DNA of 21,125 bases, taken from IMG/VR virus record IMGVR_UViG_3300005435_000256, positions 1-21,125 of that record, one strand, 5' to 3'. Each line of letters begins with the position of its first letter. Within the stretch, counting starts at the first letter, position 1. The notes under the pieces were generated by a model. The model ran no database searches and had not been told where the DNA came from. It was given only the letters and a program-made list of their open reading frames with translations. The DNA is from a virus. The translations under genes and the position numbers were made by a program. This document shows, piece by piece, positions 617 to 21,125 of this stretch.

Positions 617-2353
617 ATGCCCGCCGTAGCACGCCGCGAGGAAGGGGCCGACCGCGTTGTGTCGGACGGCGACAAGGCGCTTGCCAGTCAATGGCAGAAG
701 CGCATTGACGCCGCCCGCCAGCGCCACGCCAAGCAGATCAAACAGTTCGACATCAACCGTCAGCTGCTGCGCGGCAAGGACCGCAACGGCAAGAAGCTGG
801 AGCAAAACCTCTTCTTCGCCAACCTCGCGGCGATGCGACCCCAGGTCTATGCCAAAGACCCGGAATACGCCGTTACGCCCACCAAGGCCGTGGCCGAGAG
901 CCAACTCACGGCGGCCAAGCGCTTCTCCGAGACCGCCGAGGCGGTGCTGGGGCGCTGCCTGGTCAAGGACTCATCCCTCAAGAAGCGGGCTAAGCGCTTG
1001 GTCAACAGCGCTTACACCACCTCGGTGGGCTGGCTCAAGAACTCGTGGCAGGACGGGGACACCAAGGTGAACCCGATCATCGAGAACCAGCTGAAAGACA
1101 GCCAGGACAATCTGGACCGGCTGCAGATGCTGCGGGACAAGGCGGCGGACGAGGCATCAGGCCGCGACCACGACCTGCAGATGGCCCAGATCCGGGAAAT
1201 GATGGCCGGCCTGCAGGCCAAGGCCGAGGTGGTGGTCAACCGTGGTCTGACGCTGGATTTCGTGAAGCCCGAAGACCTGATGTGTCTGGACGAGTCCGTC
1301 GACGAGTTCGGCGACTACCTGCGTGCGTCGGCCTTGGCCCACGGCGTCTGGATGACCAAAGACACCTTTCGAACCCGGTTTGGGTACGAAGCTGGCAAGG
1401 CCAAGGGCTTCGCAGCGTCGGACCAAGCCATCATGCCCACCCAGGCTGACCAGCAGGACGAGAACAAGCGTGCCAACCTGCTGCGCGTCTGGGAGATCTG
1501 GGACCAGGACAGCAATCGGGTGTTCACGATCTGCGAAGGCGAGCCCGGCTTTTGCCGTGAGCCGTTCACGCCGACCTGGACGGGCCGCCGGTGGTATCCA
1601 TTTTTTGGCCTGGCCTGGAACGAGGCCGAAGGCAGCTTCTACCCCTTGAGCGACGTCGAGCTCACCGAGCCGCAGATCCTTGAGATCAACAAGGCCCAGC
1701 GGGATTTCGAGCGCGACCGAAAGGCGTCGCTGCCCGTCAACGTGGTGCGCAAGGGTGGGGCGCTGACGCCCACCGACGTCGAGAGGCTGAAGAACCGCGA
1801 CGGCCTCGACTTCATCATGATCGAGGGCGTGGGCGGCCAGCCAATCCAGAACGACTTGTTCATGGGCCAGCTGACACAGTTGCGCGCCGAGAACTACGAC
1901 ACCACTGCCGCCCGGTCGTTCATGGAAATGATCGTTGGCGGCGGCGACGCGGCCCGCGGCACGGTCATGAAGGCCAAGACCGCCACCGAAGCCGAGATCA
2001 TGAGCCAGGGCCTGCGCGGTCGCAGCGCCGAGCGGCAGGACGTGATCGAGGACCTGCTCACCGAGCTGGGCGAATACAGCCTGCAGATCTGCCTTCGCAT
2101 GCTGACGCCCGAAGAGGTGCAGCGGATTGCCGGGCCAGACGCATTCTGGCCGGTGATGTCGCCGGACGACATTTTCGAGCTCATCAGCGTCGAGGTGCGC
2201 GCGGGCTCCACCGGCAAGCCGGACCGCCTTCAGAACCAAGACCGCTGGACGAAGCTGATGCCCGTGGTCGAGAAGACGATGGAGCAGGTGGCGCAGCTGC
2301 GGCAGAACGGCCAAGGCCAGCTTGCCGAGGCACTGATTGCCCTGTTGCGCTAG
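617..2353 (+). CDS. Portal protein, N-terminal 578 residues, ended by an in-frame TAG
   Basis: Portal subunits form the dodecameric ring at the capsid vertex through which DNA is packaged and ejected. Portal-like signs are an N-terminal helical segment, NLFFANLAAMRPQVYAKDPE at residues 64-83 (matching the 'N.. ....P.IYAK.P...V.P' signature of P22-type podovirus portals), an acidic and aromatic middle, and a late stretch around residues 505-545 containing SPDDIF, VEVRAGSTGKP and QDRW. The ATG at 617 has only a weak upstream GAAG. A GTG at 659, preceded by AGGAAGGGG at 639-647, is an alternative start. The frame closes at TAG 2351-2353, but the same frame stays open to 2821 and the continuation looks like portal C-terminus. 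P22-type portals run to about 725 residues; 578 is short and the joined product would be 734. Read-through, a pseudogene-type amber mutation, or two separate products are all possible. Confidence 0.85.
   Translation: MPAVARREEGADRVVSDGDKALASQWQKRIDAARQRHAKQIKQFDINRQLLRGKDRNGKKLEQNLFFANLAAMRPQVYAKDPEYAVTPTKAVAESQLTAAKRFSETAEAVLGRCLVKDSSLKKRAKRLVNSAYTTSVGWLKNSWQDGDTKVNPIIENQLKDSQDNLDRLQMLRDKAADEASGRDHDLQMAQIREMMAGLQAKAEVVVNRGLTLDFVKPEDLMCLDESVDEFGDYLRASALAHGVWMTKDTFRTRFGYEAGKAKGFAASDQAIMPTQADQQDENKRANLLRVWEIWDQDSNRVFTICEGEPGFCREPFTPTWTGRRWYPFFGLAWNEAEGSFYPLSDVELTEPQILEINKAQRDFERDRKASLPVNVVRKGGALTPTDVERLKNRDGLDFIMIEGVGGQPIQNDLFMGQLTQLRAENYDTTAARSFMEMIVGGGDAARGTVMKAKTATEAEIMSQGLRGRSAERQDVIEDLLTELGEYSLQICLRMLTPEEVQRIAGPDAFWPVMSPDDIFELISVEVRAGSTGKPDRLQNQDRWTKLMPVVEKTMEQVAQLRQNGQGQLAEALIALLR
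2351..2353 (+). other. In-frame amber codon interrupting the portal reading frame
   Basis: TAG sits between CGC and ACG in one unbroken frame running from 617 to 2821. Among the 18 other complete reading frames annotated here, 16 end in TGA and 2 in TAA; none ends in TAG. No Shine-Dalgarno site lies upstream of the TTG at 2357, six bases past the start of the TAG. A single substitution from CAG, GAG, AAG, TCG or TGG would create it. It could be a real mutation, a suppressed or recoded codon, or a sequencing error. Confidence 0.6.
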
Positions 2354-2356
2354 ACG

Positions 2357-2821
2357 TTGCGGCAGTTCGACGAGAGGCTCGACTTGGAGCAGTTCTTCCC
2401 GACGCCTAAGCCGGGCGAGCAGCCACAGGGGGGTGCAGATCCAGCCGCCGCCGAGAAGCTCAAGGCGGCCATGGAGCAGATCGCGGCGCTGCAGGAAGAG
2501 GTGGAGCGCCTCAAGGCCGAGGAGGCCAAGCAGAAGCTCGACGACGAGAAGTCCAAGCGCGACACGGCCGCCAAGCTGGCCTTGGCCACGCAGCCGAGCC
2601 TGGCCATTCAGGCCTTTGGGCTCGCCACCGATGCGGTGAATGCACAGCCGGTGGTGCTGCCCCAAGGCATGCCGTCGGAGCCGCCAGAGCTGCCCATGCA
2701 GCCGCCTGCAAACGTTGAACAAACGCAAGGCATGCCGCCAGAGACTGTGCCCGTTGAACAACCCGAGGCCATGCCAATGAGCGGGCCCGACATGCCACCA
2801 ACCGCCGAGACGCCGCCATGA
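2357..2821 (+). CDS. Probable portal C-terminal segment, downstream of TAG
   Basis: 154 residues follow a TTG codon in exactly the frame of the portal gene, so this is more likely the displaced C-terminus of the portal than an independent gene. It opens with RQFDERLDLEQFFP, which reads as a smooth continuation of the portal's last visible residues ALIALLR. Residues 31-72 are a charged, heptad-like coiled coil rich in Glu, Lys and Ala. The tail after residue 95 is rich in Pro and Met with two imperfect QGMP repeats. P22-type portals end in a helical barrel, so a helical C-terminus fits. No ribosome-binding site precedes the TTG; independent translation would need termination-reinitiation at the TAG. 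The end overlaps the scaffold start as ATGA. Confidence 0.55.
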   Translation: MRQFDERLDLEQFFPTPKPGEQPQGGADPAAAEKLKAAMEQIAALQEEVERLKAEEAKQKLDDEKSKRDTAAKLALATQPSLAIQAFGLATDAVNAQPVVLPQGMPSEPPELPMQPPANVEQTQGMPPETVPVEQPEAMPMSGPDMPPTAETPP

Positions 2822-3942: not shown

Positions 3943-4086
3943 TCGCGCAGTTGCTCAGCGCAGGCCGCCGCGGGCCTTGATCGCGGCAGGTGTGAGCCCG
4001 GTTCACCGCGGGCATGTCGGACGTATGCGAGTCGTCACCGCAAACAGGCGCCCACCAGGCGCTCCTTCATGCCTTGGAGACCCATC
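3943..4086 (+). promoter_or_regulatory. 144-nt leader of the capsid gene, no gene seen
   Basis: Between scaffold and capsid genes. I see no convincing -35/-10 pair and no T7-type promoter. A weak stem of five pairs (GCCCG...CGGGC, roughly 3993-4015) is present but has no T-run. It ends in the strong GGAGA at 4076-4080 that serves the capsid start. Confidence 0.4.
4076..4080 (+). promoter_or_regulatory. Ribosome-binding site deciding the capsid start
   Basis: GGAGA lies six bases before the ATG at 4087. An earlier in-frame ATG at 4069 lacks a comparable site and would overlap this one, so 4087 is the better start. Confidence 0.75.
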
Positions 4087-5142
4087 ATGCCTTTTTCCGC
4101 ACAAGACATTCAAGACGCCGGCAAGGTCGGCATCGACTTCTACCTGGGCAACAAGCCCGTCGACCAGGTGGCCCTGGACCGCCCCCTTTTGAAGGCCCTG
4201 GTGGCCAAGAAGAAGACGGCCCCCGGCGCCAAGCAGTTCATCGTCGAGCAGCTGCGCGCCCGCTACCAGTCGAACTTCCAGTGGTTCAACGGTTCGCAGA
4301 TCGTCACCTACAACCGCCGGCAGACCATCGAGCAAGCCAACTTTGCATGGCGCTCGGCCCACGACGGCCTGGCCCTGGACGAAGACCGCCTGGTGCAGAA
4401 CGGCATCAAGGTGACCGACGACAGCGAGTCGGTGGCCACCAACGCCGAGAAATTCCAGCTGACGAACCTGCTGGAAGAGCAGTCGGAAGTGCTGCGCCTG
4501 GGCTTCCAAGAGCAGTTCAGCTACTCGCTGCACCTCGACGGCTCGCAAAGCCCTGACGCCATCGCTGGCCTGGATGCGCTGATCTCGCTGACGCCCACCA
4601 CCGGTGTCGTCGGTGGCATCGACCGCTCGCTGGCCCAGAACGCCTTCTGGCGCAACAACGTGGCCACGGGCCTGACCACCACGACTGGCACCGGAACCAT
4701 CTTGAACTCGATGGAAGTCACGTGGCGCAACTGCATGCGCAACGGCGGCGGCAAGCCCGACCTGATCCTGGCCGGCTCGACGTTCCTGGACGGCTATCGG
4801 AACTTCCTGACCAACAGCTACGGCCGCATGGATTACGGCCCCTCGGGCTTCAAGACTGTGGAAGCCGGCACCGAGACCATGACGTTCAAGGGCGTGCCGG
4901 TGCAGTGGTCGCCTGAGTTCGCCGAGCTGGACAGCCGCTATGCGCCCGCCACGCCGTGGGAGAAGCGCTGCTACTTCATCAACACCAGTCACCTGAAGCT
5001 GCGCCCGATCGAAGGCCAGGACATGGTGAACCGCAAGCCCCCGCGCGCCTATGACCGGTACGAGTACTACTGGGCCATCACGTGGCGCGGTGCTCTGACC
5101 ATGAACATGGCCTCGTCCATGGCGGTGCTGGCGGTTGCGTGA
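4087..5142 (+). CDS. Major capsid protein
   Basis: A 351-residue protein that forms the icosahedral shell. It follows the scaffold directly, has its own strong ribosome-binding site and is followed by a strong terminator, as expected for the most abundant virion product. It begins MPFSAQDIQDAGKVGIDFYL, a pattern typical of HK97-fold capsid proteins of podoviruses. Other typical stretches are FQWFNGSQIVTYNRRQTIEQ (about residues 60-80), a long helix rich in Glu and Leu (NLLEEQSEVLRLGFQEQF, about 122-142), a Gly/Thr-rich central region, GKPDLILAGSTFLDGYRNFL (about 217-237) and a C-terminal beta segment TFKGVPVQWSPEF. The C-terminus YYWAITWRGALTMNMASSM resembles the last strands of this fold. 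No delta domain is seen, consistent with a separate scaffold. The exact family cannot be fixed by eye. Confidence 0.9.
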   Translation: MPFSAQDIQDAGKVGIDFYLGNKPVDQVALDRPLLKALVAKKKTAPGAKQFIVEQLRARYQSNFQWFNGSQIVTYNRRQTIEQANFAWRSAHDGLALDEDRLVQNGIKVTDDSESVATNAEKFQLTNLLEEQSEVLRLGFQEQFSYSLHLDGSQSPDAIAGLDALISLTPTTGVVGGIDRSLAQNAFWRNNVATGLTTTTGTGTILNSMEVTWRNCMRNGGGKPDLILAGSTFLDGYRNFLTNSYGRMDYGPSGFKTVEAGTETMTFKGVPVQWSPEFAELDSRYAPATPWEKRCYFINTSHLKLRPIEGQDMVNRKPPRAYDRYEYYWAITWRGALTMNMASSMAVLAVA

Positions 5143-5258: not shown

Positions 5259-5861
5259 ATGACCGCCCTTCGCAAACTCGCACCCGAGAAGCAGCTTTCG
5301 CGCCGCGTCTACGTGAACATCACCCGCGACATGACGCAGACCATCTCCAAGGTGGTCTGGCAGCACGAGCTGCCGCTGCTCGAGATCATCCACGGCGTGG
5401 ACCGCGAGGGTGAGGACGATGACGAGGTGGGTGAGGGCATGTCGGCAGCCTCTGGTCTGAAGCTGGTCGACCCGGCCAAGCTTGACGAGGGCTACAAGGA
5501 CAAGGTGAGCGTCGAGCTCCTGCCTTACAACAAGAAGCAGGACCGCATCCCGCGGCCCAGCGAGGCCCACCGCATCGGCTGGGTGTTTGTCGGCTCGCCG
5601 CGGCTTGAATACCAGCGCCTTGCTGGCGTGTACGACAAACACCCAGAGGTCAACGTCTCCAACGCCGAGTACATCTACGGCCGCTTCCGCGAAGGCCGCT
5701 TCACGGCCGCCCTGGGCAAGCCCGAGTTCAGCGACTTGCCAGAAGCGCAGCTGGCGAGCCTGGCGCTCGACTACGGCGCGACCGTCGAGCAGCTGGCCGA
5801 GACCAGCGGCCGTGACGCGCTGACGAAGCTGTGCCGCGAGCTCGGCGTGCAACTGGGCTGA
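5259..5861 (+). CDS. Hypothetical virion-cluster protein
   Basis: A 200-residue protein that I do not recognise. AAGGA at 5247-5251 lies seven bases before the ATG. The N-terminus has alternating beta-type residues (RVYVNITRDMTQ), then a helix-prone IISKVVWQHELPLLEIIHGVD-like segment, a strongly acidic loop at about residues 48-60 (EGEDDDEVGEG), and a C-terminal helical part (about 135-200) with repeated Ala/Leu/Glu heptads. There is no signal peptide or membrane segment. It sits between capsid and adaptor, so a small virion or connector-related role is plausible, but nothing in the sequence shows it. It is the first gene after the terminator, so it depends on read-through or a promoter I cannot see. 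Confidence 0.75.
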   Translation: MTALRKLAPEKQLSRRVYVNITRDMTQTISKVVWQHELPLLEIIHGVDREGEDDDEVGEGMSAASGLKLVDPAKLDEGYKDKVSVELLPYNKKQDRIPRPSEAHRIGWVFVGSPRLEYQRLAGVYDKHPEVNVSNAEYIYGRFREGRFTAALGKPEFSDLPEAQLASLALDYGATVEQLAETSGRDALTKLCRELGVQLG

Positions 5862-8029: not shown

Positions 8030-8497
8030 ATGCGCGAGCTCACCCTCTCCGACGCCCTCGCCGTGGTGCGTGACATGCGGCTGGAGGACCGGGCGTGCGT
8101 GGCCGCGATGAATCCAGGCCTCACCGACGAGCAGTTCGCCGTGAACCGGTGGCAGACGCACGGCCCGGCCTGGGTGATCGACGACGACCACGGCGCTCCG
8201 GTGGCGATCGGTGGGGTGTCCTTCCAGACCGATTGGCTGGGGGTCTTCTGGTTTGTCGCCACGCCCCGCATGCGGCCAAAACATTGGAAAAACACGATCC
8301 GCAATCTGGACACTGTGCTCGCACGCGCGCAAGAAAAAGGCAACCCGTATTTCAAGCGCCGGCTTGAGGCCTACACCCTCGGCGGCTGGGAAGAGGCGGC
8401 ACGGTTCGCAGCCAGTCGCTTTGAGTTTGAGGGCACCAAGCGCGGTGCCGGCGCGAACGGCGAAGACATTTTGATGTGGGCCCGTGTGGCACCTTGA
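8030..8497 (+). CDS. GNAT-fold phage protein, T7 gp13-like (DUF2833 type)
   Basis: A 155-residue protein with the layout of small GNAT-fold proteins in podovirus virion clusters: N-terminal helices (LSDALAVVRDMRLEDR), strand pairs GPAWVIDDDHGAPVAIGGV and LGVFWFVATPRMRP at about residues 44-86, a long helix NLDTVLARAQEKGNPYFKR (about 92-110), and a closing EAARFAASRFEFEGTKRGAG. The Arg/Gln-X-X-Gly-X-Gly/Ala acetyl-CoA loop expected between strand 4 and the next helix is absent, replaced by PRMRPKHW. Activity as an acetyltransferase is therefore doubtful; a structural or assembly role, as in T7 gp13, is more likely. It ends 10 bases before the next start. Confidence 0.7.
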   Translation: MRELTLSDALAVVRDMRLEDRACVAAMNPGLTDEQFAVNRWQTHGPAWVIDDDHGAPVAIGGVSFQTDWLGVFWFVATPRMRPKHWKNTIRNLDTVLARAQEKGNPYFKRRLEAYTLGGWEEAARFAASRFEFEGTKRGAGANGEDILMWARVAP

Positions 8498-8502
8498 AGG
8501 GA
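8497..8502 (+). promoter_or_regulatory. Ribosome-binding site for the SGNH hydrolase gene
   Basis: AAGGGA is five bases upstream of the ATG at 8508. An in-frame GTG at 8484 is further upstream and has no such site, so the eight residues between are probably not translated. Confidence 0.7.
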
Positions 8503-8507
8503 CAGAA

Positions 8508-9707
8508 ATGGCGATCAACAACCATGCATGGCGGGTGGGCTACGGGTCCAACGCGCCATTCGGCCGCAGCAAACGGGCAACTTACAAGCCCATGGGCACG
8601 CCAGAGTTGTCCGGCACTGCCGGGCTCACGCGGCACATTGCCATTTCGCTCGGGACGCGGTTTGTGGGTCTCACTGTGCGCTTGTACAACGCGCACACCA
8701 GCGCGGTGACCTACTCGGCCTCGGTCTGTGCGCCCGACGTTCAGGCGGCTGGTGCATACAGCGACCAGGCCTGGACGCGCGTGCTGTTCGGCGGTGCAAA
8801 CACCGTGTCGGTTCCTGCAGCAACCGCGGTCATTCCCAACGGCGTGCTCGGGAGCGTGGAGAGTGACCTTGTGCCCGTCGAATCAGGCCTGGCGCAGATC
8901 ATCTGTGGGCGGACCTACTGCAACTCGGCCAACAACAGCCGATTCATCGCCGGTATCACGCCTTCGATGAATCTGCCGGTGCACGGCTTCGAGACGTACT
9001 GGCAAAACGGCGTTGACGGTGTGAGCGATCCAACAGCACTGAACGCTGCCCAAGGCATCAACACGGGTCCGCCCATGGCGTTCCGCCTCTACACGCGCGC
9101 CGACGTCTGCAAAGTGGCGATCTTCGGGGCAAGCACGGGCGACGGCTACGGCGACGCGGTGGGAGCCGGCTGGGCAACGCGAGCCCGCGAGCTGATGCGT
9201 GCCCAGGGCAAACACGTGGCCATCGAGCAGCACTCTGTGTACGGCTCGAATACGGCGAGCCACATGGCCCGGGCGCGCGTCATGATCCCGCTGACCATGC
9301 CGGACGTCTGCGTGTTTGACGTGACGGTCAGCAACGACAGCGGGGACGCGGACTGGAACACGCCTGCGTACCTCGCACGGCGCCGCTCCGAGCTCTATGA
9401 GGCCGTCGAACTGGCACGCCAGTACGGCGCGGTGCCGGTGTTCCTGACCTATCACGCCCCGGTGGGCTACAGCGGCACCCAAAACGACTACCGCAAGCAG
9501 CTGGTTGAAACAATCCGCGCGGGCGCCAACGAGGGTCACTGGGTGGCTTTCGACATCGCCAAGTCGTGGACGGACGAGACCCAGGCGGTCGGGGCCTGGA
9601 TTGGTGGCAGCGCCTTCACGGACGATGGTGCTCACGGCAATGCCGCGGGCCAAAACAACATCGCCCGACGCTTCGTGCGCACGCTCGAATCTGTCCTCAA
9701 CCCCTGA
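8508..9707 (+). CDS. SGNH/GDSL-type hydrolase with beta-rich N-terminal domain
   Basis: A 399-residue protein. Residues 1-200 are beta-rich with no membrane or export signal, and could be an attachment or sugar-binding domain. From residue 203 the SGNH hydrolase core can be read: block I AIFGASTGDG with candidate nucleophile Ser209 (the usual GDS is here GAS), block III DVTVSND with Asn276, and block V FTDDGAHGNAAGQ with Asp372/Asp373 and His376. SGNH enzymes remove acyl groups from sugars or lipids; in phages they act as de-O-acetylases on host surface glycans. The oxyanion Gly of block II is not obvious. Between the GNAT-like gene and the glycosidase-like genes, a virion-borne glycan esterase is the best reading; the substrate is unknown. 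Confidence 0.75.
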   Translation: MAINNHAWRVGYGSNAPFGRSKRATYKPMGTPELSGTAGLTRHIAISLGTRFVGLTVRLYNAHTSAVTYSASVCAPDVQAAGAYSDQAWTRVLFGGANTVSVPAATAVIPNGVLGSVESDLVPVESGLAQIICGRTYCNSANNSRFIAGITPSMNLPVHGFETYWQNGVDGVSDPTALNAAQGINTGPPMAFRLYTRADVCKVAIFGASTGDGYGDAVGAGWATRARELMRAQGKHVAIEQHSVYGSNTASHMARARVMIPLTMPDVCVFDVTVSNDSGDADWNTPAYLARRRSELYEAVELARQYGAVPVFLTYHAPVGYSGTQNDYRKQLVETIRAGANEGHWVAFDIAKSWTDETQAVGAWIGGSAFTDDGAHGNAAGQNNIARRFVRTLESVLNP

Positions 9708-9718
9708 AGGTGAGCACC

Positions 9719-10378
9719 ATGCCGGTCGGATCAGTTGGAGCGGGTGGACAGTGGCGCGAAGTGCCGGACGTGCCCGCCGAGCCCGCCGCTGGCGGCGCAG
9801 CACCGCCAGCCGCCGTGTCGAGTCTGCCGGCCGGTGAGCGCGCCGGCGCGCGGCGCGTGGCCACCAACCTCGGCCCAGCGCCTGGCACCGAGGTCGTGTT
9901 CAGCGGCTCGCGCTGGCGCCCGGTGGCGCCGGTGGTGCTGCTGACGCAAAACACCTTTATGGCCAAGACTGACGCCGACGCCAATTGGCAAACCGGCGTC
10001 TCGGTGACGTTGCCGGCGGGGCTGGTCGGGCCCGGCACGGCCCTGCGGTGCGACTACATGCTGTCCTGCAGTGCCAGCGTGCTCGGCGCCAAGGAGATCC
10101 GGTGGCTGTGGGGTGGCCAGGTGGTCAACATGCAGTCTTTCGGCCTGGAGCAGGACTTTCGCGGGCTGTTCCAAGCCCAGGCGCTCGGCGCCAACAGCGT
10201 GCAAGGGTGGTGGCAGGGCGGGGCGGTGGTGTTCGGCGCTTCGGCGCCGGCCTTCACGCAGGCCGCGGTCGACCACAGCCAGCAGCAAACCCTGGCCATG
10301 CAGTTCCGGTTTGCCGTGGCCGGCACCGGCTCCAACACTTTGACGTTGCGAGGGCTCAAGGTATGGCTCGACCCCTGA
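9719..10378 (+). CDS. Beta-rich tail-associated protein, unknown
   Basis: A 219-residue protein starting at ATG 9719, with AAGGTGAG immediately upstream overlapping the preceding gene's stop. Residues 1-55 are a disordered-looking Pro/Ala/Gly region. From about residue 60 (PGTEVVFSGSRWRPVAPVVL) the pattern is strands and loops rich in Trp, Gly and Ser, with IRWLWGGQVVNMQSF near residues 120-140. This shape is common in receptor-binding tips of phage tail fibres, though I see no named family. It overlaps the next gene by 16 bases, so the two are probably produced together. The pairing with an esterase and a glycosidase suggests binding or capping in a surface-recognition unit; that is inference. 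Confidence 0.7.
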   Translation: MPVGSVGAGGQWREVPDVPAEPAAGGAAPPAAVSSLPAGERAGARRVATNLGPAPGTEVVFSGSRWRPVAPVVLLTQNTFMAKTDADANWQTGVSVTLPAGLVGPGTALRCDYMLSCSASVLGAKEIRWLWGGQVVNMQSFGLEQDFRGLFQAQALGANSVQGWWQGGAVVFGASAPAFTQAAVDHSQQQTLAMQFRFAVAGTGSNTLTLRGLKVWLDP

Positions 10379-11307
10379 TCGGTGTGAACATCCACAGCAA
10401 GCCGTGGGGGTACAACGATCCCTACGTCTGGAACGGTGCGCCTTCCATCATCGATGCGGCTCACTCCATGGGGTTCGAGGCCGTGCGGCTCGACATCGGG
10501 CCCAGCAGCACCTACACCACCTTCCCGAACCCGCTGCAGCGTGTCCAGACCTTCATGGGCCTGTGCCGCGACCGGGGCCTGCAGGTCCAACTTGTGTTCA
10601 CGCTGCCGTTCAAGTCGAACCGCACCAATGACGGCGCCTTCCCGGACACGGCTGCAGGGCGCTACCAGCAGGGGTTCAGCCTGGTGCGCGACACGCTCCA
10701 GGCGCTGCCGTACACGCCGGCCGAGATCGAGATCGAAAACGAGATTCCGATCGCCTGCGGCATTCCGTGGAACGCTGGCCAGACCATGGCCGAGTACGAC
10801 CGCGCCTATCCAAACACCGGCAATTTCACGTTCACGGAGTGGTCGCAGGTGATGCGAGGCGAGTACGACGCCATCCGGCAGTTCGCGCCGACCGCCAAGA
10901 TCATCTTGGGCACGGTGAGCCGCAATTACGCCTTCATCCCCTGGATGCGGGCGCGCGGGATCGACCCGGACATCGTGGGCTTTCACATCTACTTTCGGCC
11001 CGGAAACGAGGAATCTCTCGACGACTGGCAGGGCGGTGGATCGTGGCACCGCCAGGTGCTGGCCTATGGCAAGCCGGTCACGGTCAATGAGCTCAACGGC
11101 AATCCGGGCAGCGGCTCTGCCATGGCGCAGTGGGGCACCAAAGCCATGCGCGAGGTCGTGGCCTCGCCGGTGCCGGTGCAGAGCGTCTTCGTGTACGAAT
11201 TGCTCGACTCGGCCCATGAGGGCGGATTCGGGCTGTGCAATTTGGTGCCGACCGGCGGCTACGTTGGCAAGCCGGTGGTGTCCGAGTTCCTCAAAAGCAA
11301 GGGGTAA
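10363..11307 (+). CDS. Glycoside hydrolase-like protein, clan GH-A type TIM barrel
   Basis: A 314-residue protein with barrel strands readable in order: GVNIHSKPWG (1), GFEAVRLDIGP (2), GLQVQLVFTLPF (3), EIEIENEIPI (4), AKIILGTVSRN (5), DIVGFHIYF (6), PVTVNELNG (7) and SVFVYELLDS (8). The Asn-Glu pair after strand 4 puts the acid/base at Glu127, and Glu243 after strand 7 is the candidate nucleophile; the spacing of 116 fits retaining clan GH-A enzymes. The HIY after strand 6 also fits. The exact family and substrate cannot be set. There is no signal peptide, which suits a virion-attached depolymerase. The start overlaps the upstream gene by 16 bases with AGGG at 10351. It ends in TAA. Confidence 0.75.
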   Translation: MARPLIGVNIHSKPWGYNDPYVWNGAPSIIDAAHSMGFEAVRLDIGPSSTYTTFPNPLQRVQTFMGLCRDRGLQVQLVFTLPFKSNRTNDGAFPDTAAGRYQQGFSLVRDTLQALPYTPAEIEIENEIPIACGIPWNAGQTMAEYDRAYPNTGNFTFTEWSQVMRGEYDAIRQFAPTAKIILGTVSRNYAFIPWMRARGIDPDIVGFHIYFRPGNEESLDDWQGGGSWHRQVLAYGKPVTVNELNGNPGSGSAMAQWGTKAMREVVASPVPVQSVFVYELLDSAHEGGFGLCNLVPTGGYVGKPVVSEFLKSKG

Positions 11308-16820: not shown

Positions 16821-19190
16821 ATGGCCGGCATGGCACAGGCACCCATCTACACGCGCGTCACCGATTTCTCGCAGGACGAACTGAACAACGTCGGCGGGCG
16901 CTCGACGGTTGGCACGGCGAAGCTTGATGCCGAGCTGGACAACATTCAGGCAACCGTCAACGCGCTGCGAAGCAACCTGACGGCCATCCAGCGCGACGAC
17001 GGGAAGCTGCGGGACTCGTCGCTCAGCATCAACAGCCTTGACGCCACGGTGCTGGCCGCTTTGGGCATCACCGGCGCCATCCGCGGCGCCTGGCTCACTG
17101 CCACGGCCTACGCTGTGCGCGACATCATTCAGCAGGGTGGAAACACCTACATGGCGCTGGTCACGCACACCAGCGGCACGTTCGCAACCGACCTGTCTGC
17201 GGGACGCTGGTTCCAGCTGGGTGGGTCCAGCGCCGTGCGCACCGGCATCGGTGCAGCGACTCGCGCCATCGCCGCAAAGGTGCAGGACTTCACCACCACA
17301 GCCGACACCAACAGCTTGACCGGCGACATGGTGGCAGACGACTCCACCGCCCTGGGCAGCGCCCTGACCGACTTCGCGGCATCCAACCGGACCAGCTTGC
17401 ACTTCGTGAGCGGGATGCGGCACCGGACCACCTCCAACCTGGCCATTGCCGGTGCCCTGAACTACGCGAGCGGTGCTGACACGTTCCTGCGCGGCCACGG
17501 CGCCCGCATCTACGCGGACCACTTGGGCACTGCCTTGACGGTGGGCGACTACACCAATCACGGCCCGGGCTACCGCATCAACTACCACGTCGACGGCCTC
17601 AACTTCTTCGGAAAGACCGGCCAGGACGTGACCACCAGCGGATCGGTCGGCCTTCTCGTCAACAGCACGGCCAATGTCTTCACCGAAGACAACACGATCA
17701 GCGGGTTCCAGTACGGTCTCAAGGGGCAGGGCGCACTGATCTGCGACTTCACGAACCTGACCAGCCGAGACAACGGATTTGGGGCGCACTTCACGGCGGC
17801 CAACGGCTTCAGTCCCAACAGCATCAACCTGTGGGGCGCCAGGCTGATCGAGAACAAGCTGGCCCTTTACATCAACGACACCTCCCAGGGGGAGACCAAC
17901 CTGTTCGGGTGCCAGACTGAGGGCAACAACCAGGGCGGCAACTCCGCGGATGGCAAGGTCATCAGCGACCACCAGAATGCTGGCTACACCAACCTGATTG
18001 GCTGCCACGACGAAGGCAACCCGGGCCAGATCAACCGGCGGTACGTCGGCGGCGACGTCGGCAAGGGCCTGCTGATCGCCGGCTCACAGCTCATCAGCAA
18101 TTCGGGCACGGTGTTGGAGATGACGCAGGGGTCGCTGACCGCAGTGTCGTCGCGGATCACTGGCGGCATCACGAACCAGGTCAACCTGGCGAGCAACGCG
18201 GCCAGCGCAGTGCTCATCAACACCGAGACGAGCCTGAGCGGCACGCTCGATCGGGTGCAGGCGCTGCGGTACGGCAAGACTTCGTTCGGCGCGAACTCGC
18301 CACTTGTCGGCGACCCGCTGCTGTGGGCGCGCCCTGCTGCGATCGCGGACTCCGGCAACATCGTCGCGCGCTGGCAGAACAACAACATCGTCGAGCAGTT
18401 CTACAACACGGCCGGGTCTCGGGTCGGTTATCGCTCCTGGAACACTGGCAGCAATGCCGTTTTCTTCCAGGACCAGGCGTACGGCTACGAGTTCTATGGC
18501 AGCAATGCGGTGCGCTTCTTCGTTGCGCGCAACGGTGCTCAGTCAATTGAACCCGGCGCAGCCAACGCGGTCCTGTGTGGCAGCGCTGTGTTGCCTTGGT
18601 CTGGCGGCAACACACAGGTGGCCTTCACGATCACCTCGGACGAGCGCACGAAGCTCAACCCTGTTGACATCGACGACGCGGCGCTCGACGCTTGGGCAGA
18701 GGTGCGATGGGTGGTTTACCAACTCATCACCTCGTACCAAGAGAAGGGCGACGAAGCTCGACTGCACTCGGGCACCGTGGCCCAGTACATCCTCGGGGCG
18801 TTCGAGCGGCAGGGCTTGGATGGCCGTCGGTTCGCCTTGCTCTGCCATGACAAGTGGGACGACCAGTTCCGCGACGTGCCTGCCGTTCAGGAGCGTGTAC
18901 CCGCCGTGGTGAAGGTCATTCCGGCACACGAGATCCCTGCGCACATCGACAAAGATGGCCTCTTCGTGCTGACCAAAGAGGTGGGCGAGGAGGTCGTCGA
19001 ACTGGAGCCGGCGTATATCCGCGAAGTGTCGCCGGCCACCAAAGAACTCGTGCGCGCGGCGGGCGACTGCTGGTCGGTGCGCTACGAAGAAGCCTTCGCG
19101 TTCGAGGCCGCATGGAACCGGCGCGAGCACAAGCGCATGGCCGCACGTGTCGAGCAGTTGGAGGCGGCCTTGGCTGCCCTGAAGCCGTGA
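16821..19190 (+). CDS. Tail spike/fibre with C-terminal S74 intramolecular chaperone
   Basis: A 789-residue protein. Residues 8-65 (IYTRVTDFSQDELNNVGGRS, then AKLDAELDNIQATVNAL and RDDGKLRD) are the typical virion-binding N-terminus of podovirus fibres. Residues 89-134 (AWLTATAYAVRDIIQQGGNT and onward to AGRWFQL) look like a small carbohydrate-binding domain. Residues about 150-480 contain repeated short strands with N, G and D turns, consistent with a right-handed beta-helix. The C-terminus has ITSDERTK at 604-611, with candidate autocleavage Ser606, and HSGTVAQYI at 649-657, corresponding to the HxGxxAQ motif of the endosialidase-type chaperone (Peptidase_S74). A coiled coil ends it (AARVEQLEAALAALKP). 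The trimer would cut itself after folding. A second ATG at 16830 is possible. Confidence 0.85.
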   Translation: MAGMAQAPIYTRVTDFSQDELNNVGGRSTVGTAKLDAELDNIQATVNALRSNLTAIQRDDGKLRDSSLSINSLDATVLAALGITGAIRGAWLTATAYAVRDIIQQGGNTYMALVTHTSGTFATDLSAGRWFQLGGSSAVRTGIGAATRAIAAKVQDFTTTADTNSLTGDMVADDSTALGSALTDFAASNRTSLHFVSGMRHRTTSNLAIAGALNYASGADTFLRGHGARIYADHLGTALTVGDYTNHGPGYRINYHVDGLNFFGKTGQDVTTSGSVGLLVNSTANVFTEDNTISGFQYGLKGQGALICDFTNLTSRDNGFGAHFTAANGFSPNSINLWGARLIENKLALYINDTSQGETNLFGCQTEGNNQGGNSADGKVISDHQNAGYTNLIGCHDEGNPGQINRRYVGGDVGKGLLIAGSQLISNSGTVLEMTQGSLTAVSSRITGGITNQVNLASNAASAVLINTETSLSGTLDRVQALRYGKTSFGANSPLVGDPLLWARPAAIADSGNIVARWQNNNIVEQFYNTAGSRVGYRSWNTGSNAVFFQDQAYGYEFYGSNAVRFFVARNGAQSIEPGAANAVLCGSAVLPWSGGNTQVAFTITSDERTKLNPVDIDDAALDAWAEVRWVVYQLITSYQEKGDEARLHSGTVAQYILGAFERQGLDGRRFALLCHDKWDDQFRDVPAVQERVPAVVKVIPAHEIPAHIDKDGLFVLTKEVGEEVVELEPAYIREVSPATKELVRAAGDCWSVRYEEAFAFEAAWNRREHKRMAARVEQLEAALAALKP

Positions 19191-19198
19191 GGTGAGCC

Positions 19199-19618
19199 AT
19201 GCAGCTGACGCCACCCCCTCAGCCAGCCCTGGACATCGTGTCCGCAGCGATCAAGGCGTCGGCATTCGTCTTCGGATCTGAGGCGGCGGCACAGTACATC
19301 GGGCCCTATCTGGTCATCATCGTCGCCTCATGCGTGGGCGCCTACCTGGGCACGGTCAAAGACGACACGAAGACCTCCATGGCCACCCTCGTGAACGCAG
19401 CGGTCGGGACCCTTGCAGCCGTGCTGGTCACGGTTTCCATCTCGATGGTGTGCGCCAAGTACACCCCGTTTGAAGCCCAGGTGTGGTTCGTGCCGATCGC
19501 CGGGCTCATCGGGTTTCGCTACAAGCAGATCCCCAGCGACCTGGGCCGGCTGTGGGGCTTCGGCACGCGGCTCCTTGGCGACTGGCTGCGGCTGCGCTTC
19601 AGGGAGACCGAAAAATGA
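19199..19618 (+). CDS. Small membrane protein, holin candidate
   Basis: A 139-residue protein directly after the spike, with AGGTGAG before the ATG. It has two clear hydrophobic segments at about 34-51 (IGPYLVIIVASCVGAYL) and 63-85 (TLVNAAVGTLAAVLVTVSISMVC), and a shorter one near 95-106 (WFVPIAGLIGFRY). The C-terminus is basic (RLRFRETEK), as in many holins. No signal peptidase site is evident. Its position at the end of the virion cluster, overlapping the next membrane-protein gene by ATGA, fits a lysis cassette. Which holin class, or whether it is one, cannot be said from this sequence alone. Confidence 0.6.
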   Translation: MQLTPPPQPALDIVSAAIKASAFVFGSEAAAQYIGPYLVIIVASCVGAYLGTVKDDTKTSMATLVNAAVGTLAAVLVTVSISMVCAKYTPFEAQVWFVPIAGLIGFRYKQIPSDLGRLWGFGTRLLGDWLRLRFRETEK

Positions 19619-19938
19619 TGATGACCCCCACCAACGGTCAGCTGCTGCTTGCCATCGTCAACTGCGTGCTGTGCCTCTTCGTCGCTTACTCGTGCCTGAT
19701 GCGGGCGAAGGTCATGCGGCAGTGGAGCACGCGATGGTCATGGCAGCTGCGCTACGCCGCGCTGTTCGGGGTGTCGGTGGTCGGTGCCTTCGCGCCGCTC
19801 ACCATGGGCGAATGGCCCGGTTGGTTTCACATCTCGATCGAGGGCGCCTTGCTTTCGATCATTGGCCTTGGCGGCTCATGGGAAGAGGACGGAGTTCCCC
19901 CCTACGCGAAAAAACACAACGTGAAAGCCAAAGCCTGA
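19615..19938 (+). CDS. Small membrane protein, second holin/antiholin candidate
   Basis: A 107-residue protein whose ATG overlaps the upstream TGA (ATGATGATG). The first Met at 19615 has AGGGAGA at 19601-19607 at a good distance; the Mets at 19618 and 19621 are also in frame. Hydrophobic segments lie at about 9-28 (QLLLAIVNCVLCLFVAYSCL), 46-64 (RYAALFGVSVVGAFAPLTM) and 71-87. The segments are split by the basic loop MRAKVMRQWSTRWSW. The C-terminus is hydrophilic and basic. Two starts close together recall dual-start holin genes, but this is only a resemblance. It may be a partner or antiholin of the previous gene. Confidence 0.6.
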   Translation: MMMTPTNGQLLLAIVNCVLCLFVAYSCLMRAKVMRQWSTRWSWQLRYAALFGVSVVGAFAPLTMGEWPGWFHISIEGALLSIIGLGGSWEEDGVPPYAKKHNVKAKA

Positions 19939-19947
19939 GCACCACCC

Positions 19948-19960
19948 GCGGCCTGGCCGC
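19948..19960 (+). repeat. Short GC palindrome between lysis-type genes
   Basis: GCGGCC, T, GGCCGC form a perfect short palindrome in the 48-base gap before the secreted-protein gene. No T-run follows, so it is not a full terminator by eye. It may be chance in GC-rich DNA. Confidence 0.35.
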
Positions 19961-19986
19961 ATAACCGCCGATAGTGAGGTCCCCCC

Positions 19987-21125
19987 ATGAAGTCGAAATT
20001 GTCCGTTGTCGCGCTCGCCGCGATGTCCTTTGCTGCGCATGCGCAGACCGCCTCCACGGCGCCCACCACCAAGTACTACACCTTCCCCCGCCCCGGCGCC
20101 CTGTACGACGGCTCAACCCGCGTGAACCAGAAGGACTACTGGAGCGGCCAGGAGTGCCTGGACGACCTTGAAAAAGCAGTGAAAGCGAAGCGTGCGCTCA
20201 ACCCGAGCGCGCCCGTGGTCGGCATGCGTTGCCGCGCGGAGACAGGCGGGGTCAGTGAGCTGGTGCAGCCAGGCAAGAATCCGCCCCCCCCCGTGGACCC
20301 CGACCCCATCCCGCCAGTCAAAGAAAACCCGCCCGTGACATCGATGCCGCCCGGCATCTTGGCGGCCAAGCCCTTCCCGGTTGGTTCGGCTGGGTACAGC
20401 ACCGAGCGCCTGTCCCCGTTCGTGCCCGGCACCGGCCTGCCCGGCATTCAAGGCCCCTACGACGTGGGCGCGTTCCGTCTGCAGTGCCAAGCTTCGCACG
20501 TCGCCAATGACGACCCCATCGTGTACCCAGGGCAGCCCGGCCGCTCGCACCTGCACACGTTTTTCGGCAACACCACGACCGATGCCTACTCGACGAACGC
20601 CTCGCTTGTGGCCAAGGGCAACTCCACCTGTAACGGGGGCACCATCAACCGCACCGGCTACTGGGCGCCGTCGATGATCAACATGACGACGAAGCAGGTC
20701 GTCATGCCGGCCTATGCAGACTTCTACTACAAGACCGGCTACGGCGGCGTGAAGCCGGCCGATGTCAAGCCGTACCCCGCGGGTCTGCGCATGATCGCTG
20801 GTGATCCGATGAATCGCCGAGTCGGCACTGGACAGCCGTACCGCTACATCTGCCACAACACGCTGTCCGCCACGGGCGGCCTCATTGAGGCGCAGACCTT
20901 CGTGAGCTGCCCGGTCGGCGACTACATGAGCATGGAGGTGTTCTTTCCGCAGTGCTGGGACGGCAAGAACCTGGACAGCCCGGACCACAAGAGCCACATG
21001 GCCTACCCGGCTGGCAACGGCTGCCCGCAGTCGCACCCGGTGGCCCTGCCCGAGTACTCGATGCACATCCATTACCTCGTCACGGCCGCCGGCGTAGAGC
21101 GCCAATGGAAGCTGTCGAGCGACGA
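19987..21125 (+). CDS. Secreted DUF1996 protein, cut by the window end
   Basis: At least 379 residues, open to the last base. GAGG at 19976-19979 precedes the ATG. The start MKSKLSVVALAAMSFAAHAQ is a typical Sec signal peptide, with cleavage likely after Ala19. A small domain at about 23-97 holds two cysteines (57 and 82), probably a disulfide, followed by a Pro-rich linker at about 98-118. From about 155 the DUF1996 pattern is clear: SHVANDDPIVYPGQPGRSHL (171-189 region) with THTFFGN, STCNGG, and FPQCWDGKNLDSPDHKSHM (319-338). Six cysteines (167, 215, 289, 308, 323, 346) and many histidines are retained, suggesting a folded, disulfide-stabilised exported domain, maybe metal-binding. The family's role is not known. 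Placement after membrane proteins suggests an envelope role. Confidence 0.8.
   Translation, partial: MKSKLSVVALAAMSFAAHAQTASTAPTTKYYTFPRPGALYDGSTRVNQKDYWSGQECLDDLEKAVKAKRALNPSAPVVGMRCRAETGGVSELVQPGKNPPPPVDPDPIPPVKENPPVTSMPPGILAAKPFPVGSAGYSTERLSPFVPGTGLPGIQGPYDVGAFRLQCQASHVANDDPIVYPGQPGRSHLHTFFGNTTTDAYSTNASLVAKGNSTCNGGTINRTGYWAPSMINMTTKQVVMPAYADFYYKTGYGGVKPADVKPYPAGLRMIAGDPMNRRVGTGQPYRYICHNTLSATGGLIEAQTFVSCPVGDYMSMEVFFPQCWDGKNLDSPDHKSHMAYPAGNGCPQSHPVALPEYSMHIHYLVTAAGVERQWKLSSD

Follow-up and report, generated by a model that had tools for sequence, protein, structure and literature searches.

Results

The portal gene and its in-frame TAG

The DNA analysed here (the window) is a virus record of 21,125 bases, a fragment of a genome. 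On its plus strand, a frame at 617..2353 encodes the N-terminal 578 codons of a portal gene, covering the wing, the stem and most of the crown, as assigned from a match to PHROG 12082, the unbroken genes of relatives and the predicted fold of a related portal (L009). This frame is closed by a TAG at 2351..2353, after which the same frame runs through another 155 sense codons to a TGA at 2819-2821, the whole interrupted gene amounting to 734 codons. The part behind the stop (2354..2821, plus strand) corresponds to the end of the last crown helix, a linker, the barrel helices and a proline-rich tail, as judged by alignment, coding composition and the helices of the L009 model. It reads TLRQFDERLDLEQFFP and aligns with the C-termini of the relatives' portals, the best tblastn match having 39% identity over 95 amino acids (E 5e-11). 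The GC content at the three codon positions is.65/.41/.87 before the TAG and.74/.45/.81 after it, the same coding signature on both sides. The homology of the continuation to portal C-termini means that its open frame is no accident, and since it aligns with them, it completes the portal and is no separate gene. No ribosome-binding site was found before the TTG at 2357. In describing a TAG-closed portal frame with a long open continuation that lacks a ribosome-binding site, the original prediction was borne out, and the portal of this contig should be annotated as a single interrupted gene, not as two.

The first part of the gene matched the PHROG 12082 portal family (E 2.1e-12) and the annotated portal of Microcystis phage Mae-Yong1326-1 (29.5% identity, E 3e-39), and portals or portal-like proteins in phage records shared 24-30% identity with it. 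Close relatives, with 49-62% identity, were found in viral contigs and in genome records of Herminiimonas, Rhizobacter and Roseateles. Searches of Pfam and of the PDB sequences with the portal gave no match; weak Pfam hits of its tail (ZapB and others, below the cut-off) were set aside as coiled-coil resemblance. The structural model used was that of the portal of the closest relative, L009 (pLDDT 76.2, pTM 0.61), rather than of the window's own protein. The model matched solved portals, that of N4 first and then those of Pan3, SU10, DEV, T7 and P22 (E down to 5e-17), as well as predicted viral portals. The comparison with a P22-type portal made earlier holds for the total length, which is similar, and not for the fold, the nearest solved one being of the N4 type. 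The surroundings are those of a head gene cluster, with a major head protein (PHROG 9953, E 9e-48) downstream at 4069-5142. Thus, a sequence match is shared with the podovirus-type portals (PHROG 12082; N4, DEV, Pan3, SU10 and P22 folds) and the predicted fold of L009 matches them, whereas the frame through the crown and the barrel, continuous in all relatives, is interrupted by one TAG in the window record only. The gene is a portal gene by descent, the product of which is most likely truncated here.

What relatives carry at the TAG position

All relatives that reach the junction are unbroken there. The codon at the position of the TAG is that of glutamate in 26 of the 26 distinct relatives (35-62% identity), being GAG in 13 of them and GAA in the other 13, and it is followed by TLRRFDER or near variants. 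An alignment of 23 relatives placed the glutamate in the same column. Four remote relatives (27% identity) carried the same glutamate shifted by one codon in the pairwise match, and one of them, placed in a multiple alignment, had it in register; the window's TAG was read as Glu in that multiple alignment by choice, so that the window row is no evidence. The alignment with homologues proposed as a check has therefore returned unbroken portals with a glutamate at the TAG position, which refutes the suggested separate portal domain protein.

The search was extended to 2.9 million viral contigs (IMG/VR) with a pattern made of the TAG and its kept flanking codons. The TAG form matched four contigs, all of which were rejected as none of the matches was a portal, while with a Glu codon in place of the TAG the pattern was found in 43 contigs, 37 of which carry a portal homologue; as one Phe codon of the pattern is written TTC, these counts refer to contigs with TTC and not TTT there. 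Near-identical DNA copies were sought in phage records and viral contigs and none was found, in a collection that may by design omit records very near the window. No other portal with a TAG at this site was found, and, judged from the sequences compared, the TAG is private to the window contig and unique in the collections searched. Both the invariant Glu codon at the site and the privacy of the TAG support the earlier suggestion of a natural amber mutation (or an assembly error).

Discussion

Decoding of the TAG and the two-part alternatives

The gene is very probably a full-length podovirus-type portal gene with one private nonsense codon, at which the TAG acts as a stop. The readings in which the TAG is decoded, or in which the split gene is functional, are unlikely even when taken together. 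A genome-wide recoding, with TAG read as an amino acid as in translation table 15 (TAG=Gln), is next to impossible. In its favour, the other complete genes of the window do not end in TAG; the terminators in the gene list are 14 TGA, 2 TAA and the one TAG of the portal, in line with the avoidance of TAG noted originally, although at 66% GC a shortage of TAG terminators is nothing unusual. The TAG at 2351 is, however, the only one in frame among about 6,700 codons of the window, even though codons for Gln (371) and for Glu (317) abound, and relatives have Glu at the site rather than the Gln of table 15. It is also the only stop inside any window gene that is crossed by homology: many crossed stops in a six-frame comparison proved to be shadow frames, the true gene frames leaving only 2351 and 5229, and the latter precedes a gene start at 5259. 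TAG is, moreover, the normal portal terminator in the relatives L009, L027 and L035. The window contains no tRNA, as originally noted, and none, including a suppressor with a CUA anticodon, was found in the contigs of eleven relatives, several of which are about 40 kb long. Phages using table 15 likewise have in-frame TAG codons in structural genes, but in them many genes are interrupted and strongly shortened under the standard code, and a Sup-CTA tRNA is present in about half of the cases (PMC11210395). Recoding is thus unlikely because of the single TAG, the TAG terminators of the family, the lack of a visible tRNA and the contrast with the table-15 phages.

If the host or a suppressor tRNA allowed partial read-through of the TAG, short and full-length portals would be made side by side; this is distinctly improbable. 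In its favour, the frame behind the stop is undisturbed and its coding signature is retained, and in-frame stops with purifying selection behind them have been reported in bacterial genes (PMC7918605); a recent lesion predicts a clean continuation equally well. A suppressor tRNA might lie elsewhere, as the window is a fragment, whereas none was seen here or in the eleven relatives' contigs, and the stop is kept at the site by no relative. The folding of the 120 nucleotides that begin with the stop is no stronger than that of shuffled sequences (z -0.54), which speaks against a stimulatory RNA structure, even though such a structure is not required at all read-through sites. Nor is read-through needed as an explanation, because a host still replicates a prophage that has a dead portal gene; the suggested suppression found no positive evidence. 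Still less probable is a regulated version, in which the phage or its host would decode the single TAG at a set rate, so that a controlled proportion of the subunits in the portal ring of the virion would be full-length and carry the barrel. Decoding of the TAG, if it did occur, would make this portal one of the rare phage structural genes with stop read-through. It is also very improbable, if slightly less so than such regulated decoding, that the portal is naturally in two parts, or that the 578-residue form works by itself, with the rest either dispensable or made as a separate protein. The last 50 residues of the P22 portal are indeed dispensable (PMC4992974), and a barrel-less core of residues 1-602 has been crystallised (PMC5290284). 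Here, however, the conserved ETLRRFDER at the crown end would go together with the entire barrel, a larger loss than that of the dispensable P22 tail; the relatives are all continuous, and the TTG at 2357 lacks a ribosome-binding site.

Nonsense mutation or sequence error

The locus is best read as carrying either a nonsense mutation of the ordinary kind or an error of sequencing, with no new way of reading the genetic code involved. Upstream of the stop, the window departs from the other relatives at none of the 100 positions that are invariant among them. Downstream it departs at one of six, and three other relatives also show one departure there. The downstream change, Arg to Gln at the fourth residue past the stop, may mean that some time has passed since the lesion, or it may be ordinary variation. 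Neither flank of the stop bears the marks of long neglect, so that the lesion either arose recently or is not real.

Integrases were present in 7 of the 11 relatives' records searched, one of these records being a whole bacterial genome with many integrases. The hosts of the relatives belong to Burkholderiales, and portals of the group lie inside the genome records of the three genera named above. Integrases together with portals in bacterial genome records indicate that the group is temperate, and since a dead portal gene can persist in a prophage, a real mutation is plausible. The earlier argument that a broken portal would be lethal if fixed does not hold, given that a single contig does not demonstrate fixation and that the relatives are temperate.

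In the proposed course of events, a recent substitution would have turned the invariant Glu codon into TAG in a temperate phage; the mutated copy would probably be a prophage no longer selected for virion assembly, and its message would yield a portal of 578 residues without the crown end and the barrel. We give an even chance to such a mutation being real and recent, in a temperate phage and probably in a prophage copy, while an error of base calling, amplification or consensus is a somewhat less probable but serious possibility; this division is inferred. Counting against a decayed prophage, the other genes of the window look intact and no wider sign of prophage decay is seen. The pattern is the same as in the nonsense (amber) mutants of phage structural genes, where the codon of a conserved residue becomes a stop while the rest of the gene and the relatives remain intact, with the difference that in a metagenome contig the change may be an error of sequence. 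The finding is an ordinary one, and it carries a warning: before recoding is proposed from one in-frame stop in a metagenome contig, the relatives should be consulted.

Consequence for the protein

In the L009 model, the glutamate of the site is residue 570, inside a helix spanning residues 558-574, and the long helices 596-637 and 641-659 come after it. In the P22 portal, the crown comprises residues 525-600 and the barrel residues 600-725 (PMC5290284). By analogy, the stop is predicted to lie near the end of the crown, inside its last helix, and with the stop so placed a truncated portal would lose the crown end and the whole barrel. A portal of 578 residues would most likely be non-functional.

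Other genes in the window

The gene at 6529-8028 matches PHROG 5107, a family of phage lysis proteins (amidase, E 2e-7), despite its position in the head gene cluster. Its homologue in the L010 record (G003) occupies 21029-22503 in two open frames of 331 and 416 amino acids, possibly owing to a frameshift there. The region 8484-11307, flanked by conserved genes, has no counterpart in the relatives compared, and two of its frames gave no match against phage records; it probably contains genes at 8484-9707 and 9719-10378 and a third from about 10372 to 11307. Frameshifts considered near 9700-10400 and 19200-20000 were discarded, as translation gives continuous ordinary genes.

At 16821-19190 lies a tail fibre or spike gene, the product of which ends in a chaperone domain of the endosialidase type (Peptidase_S74) and weakly matches a carbohydrate-binding module (CBM_5_12, below the cut-off). 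The family of the last gene was sought in the records of the eleven relatives without a match, in a search the controls of which were also unmatched. This gene, at 19987-21123, runs off the window end, has a signal-peptide-like start, belongs to DUF1996 (PF09362, E 2e-40) and has a 42% match in a phage contig from Manatee Spring.
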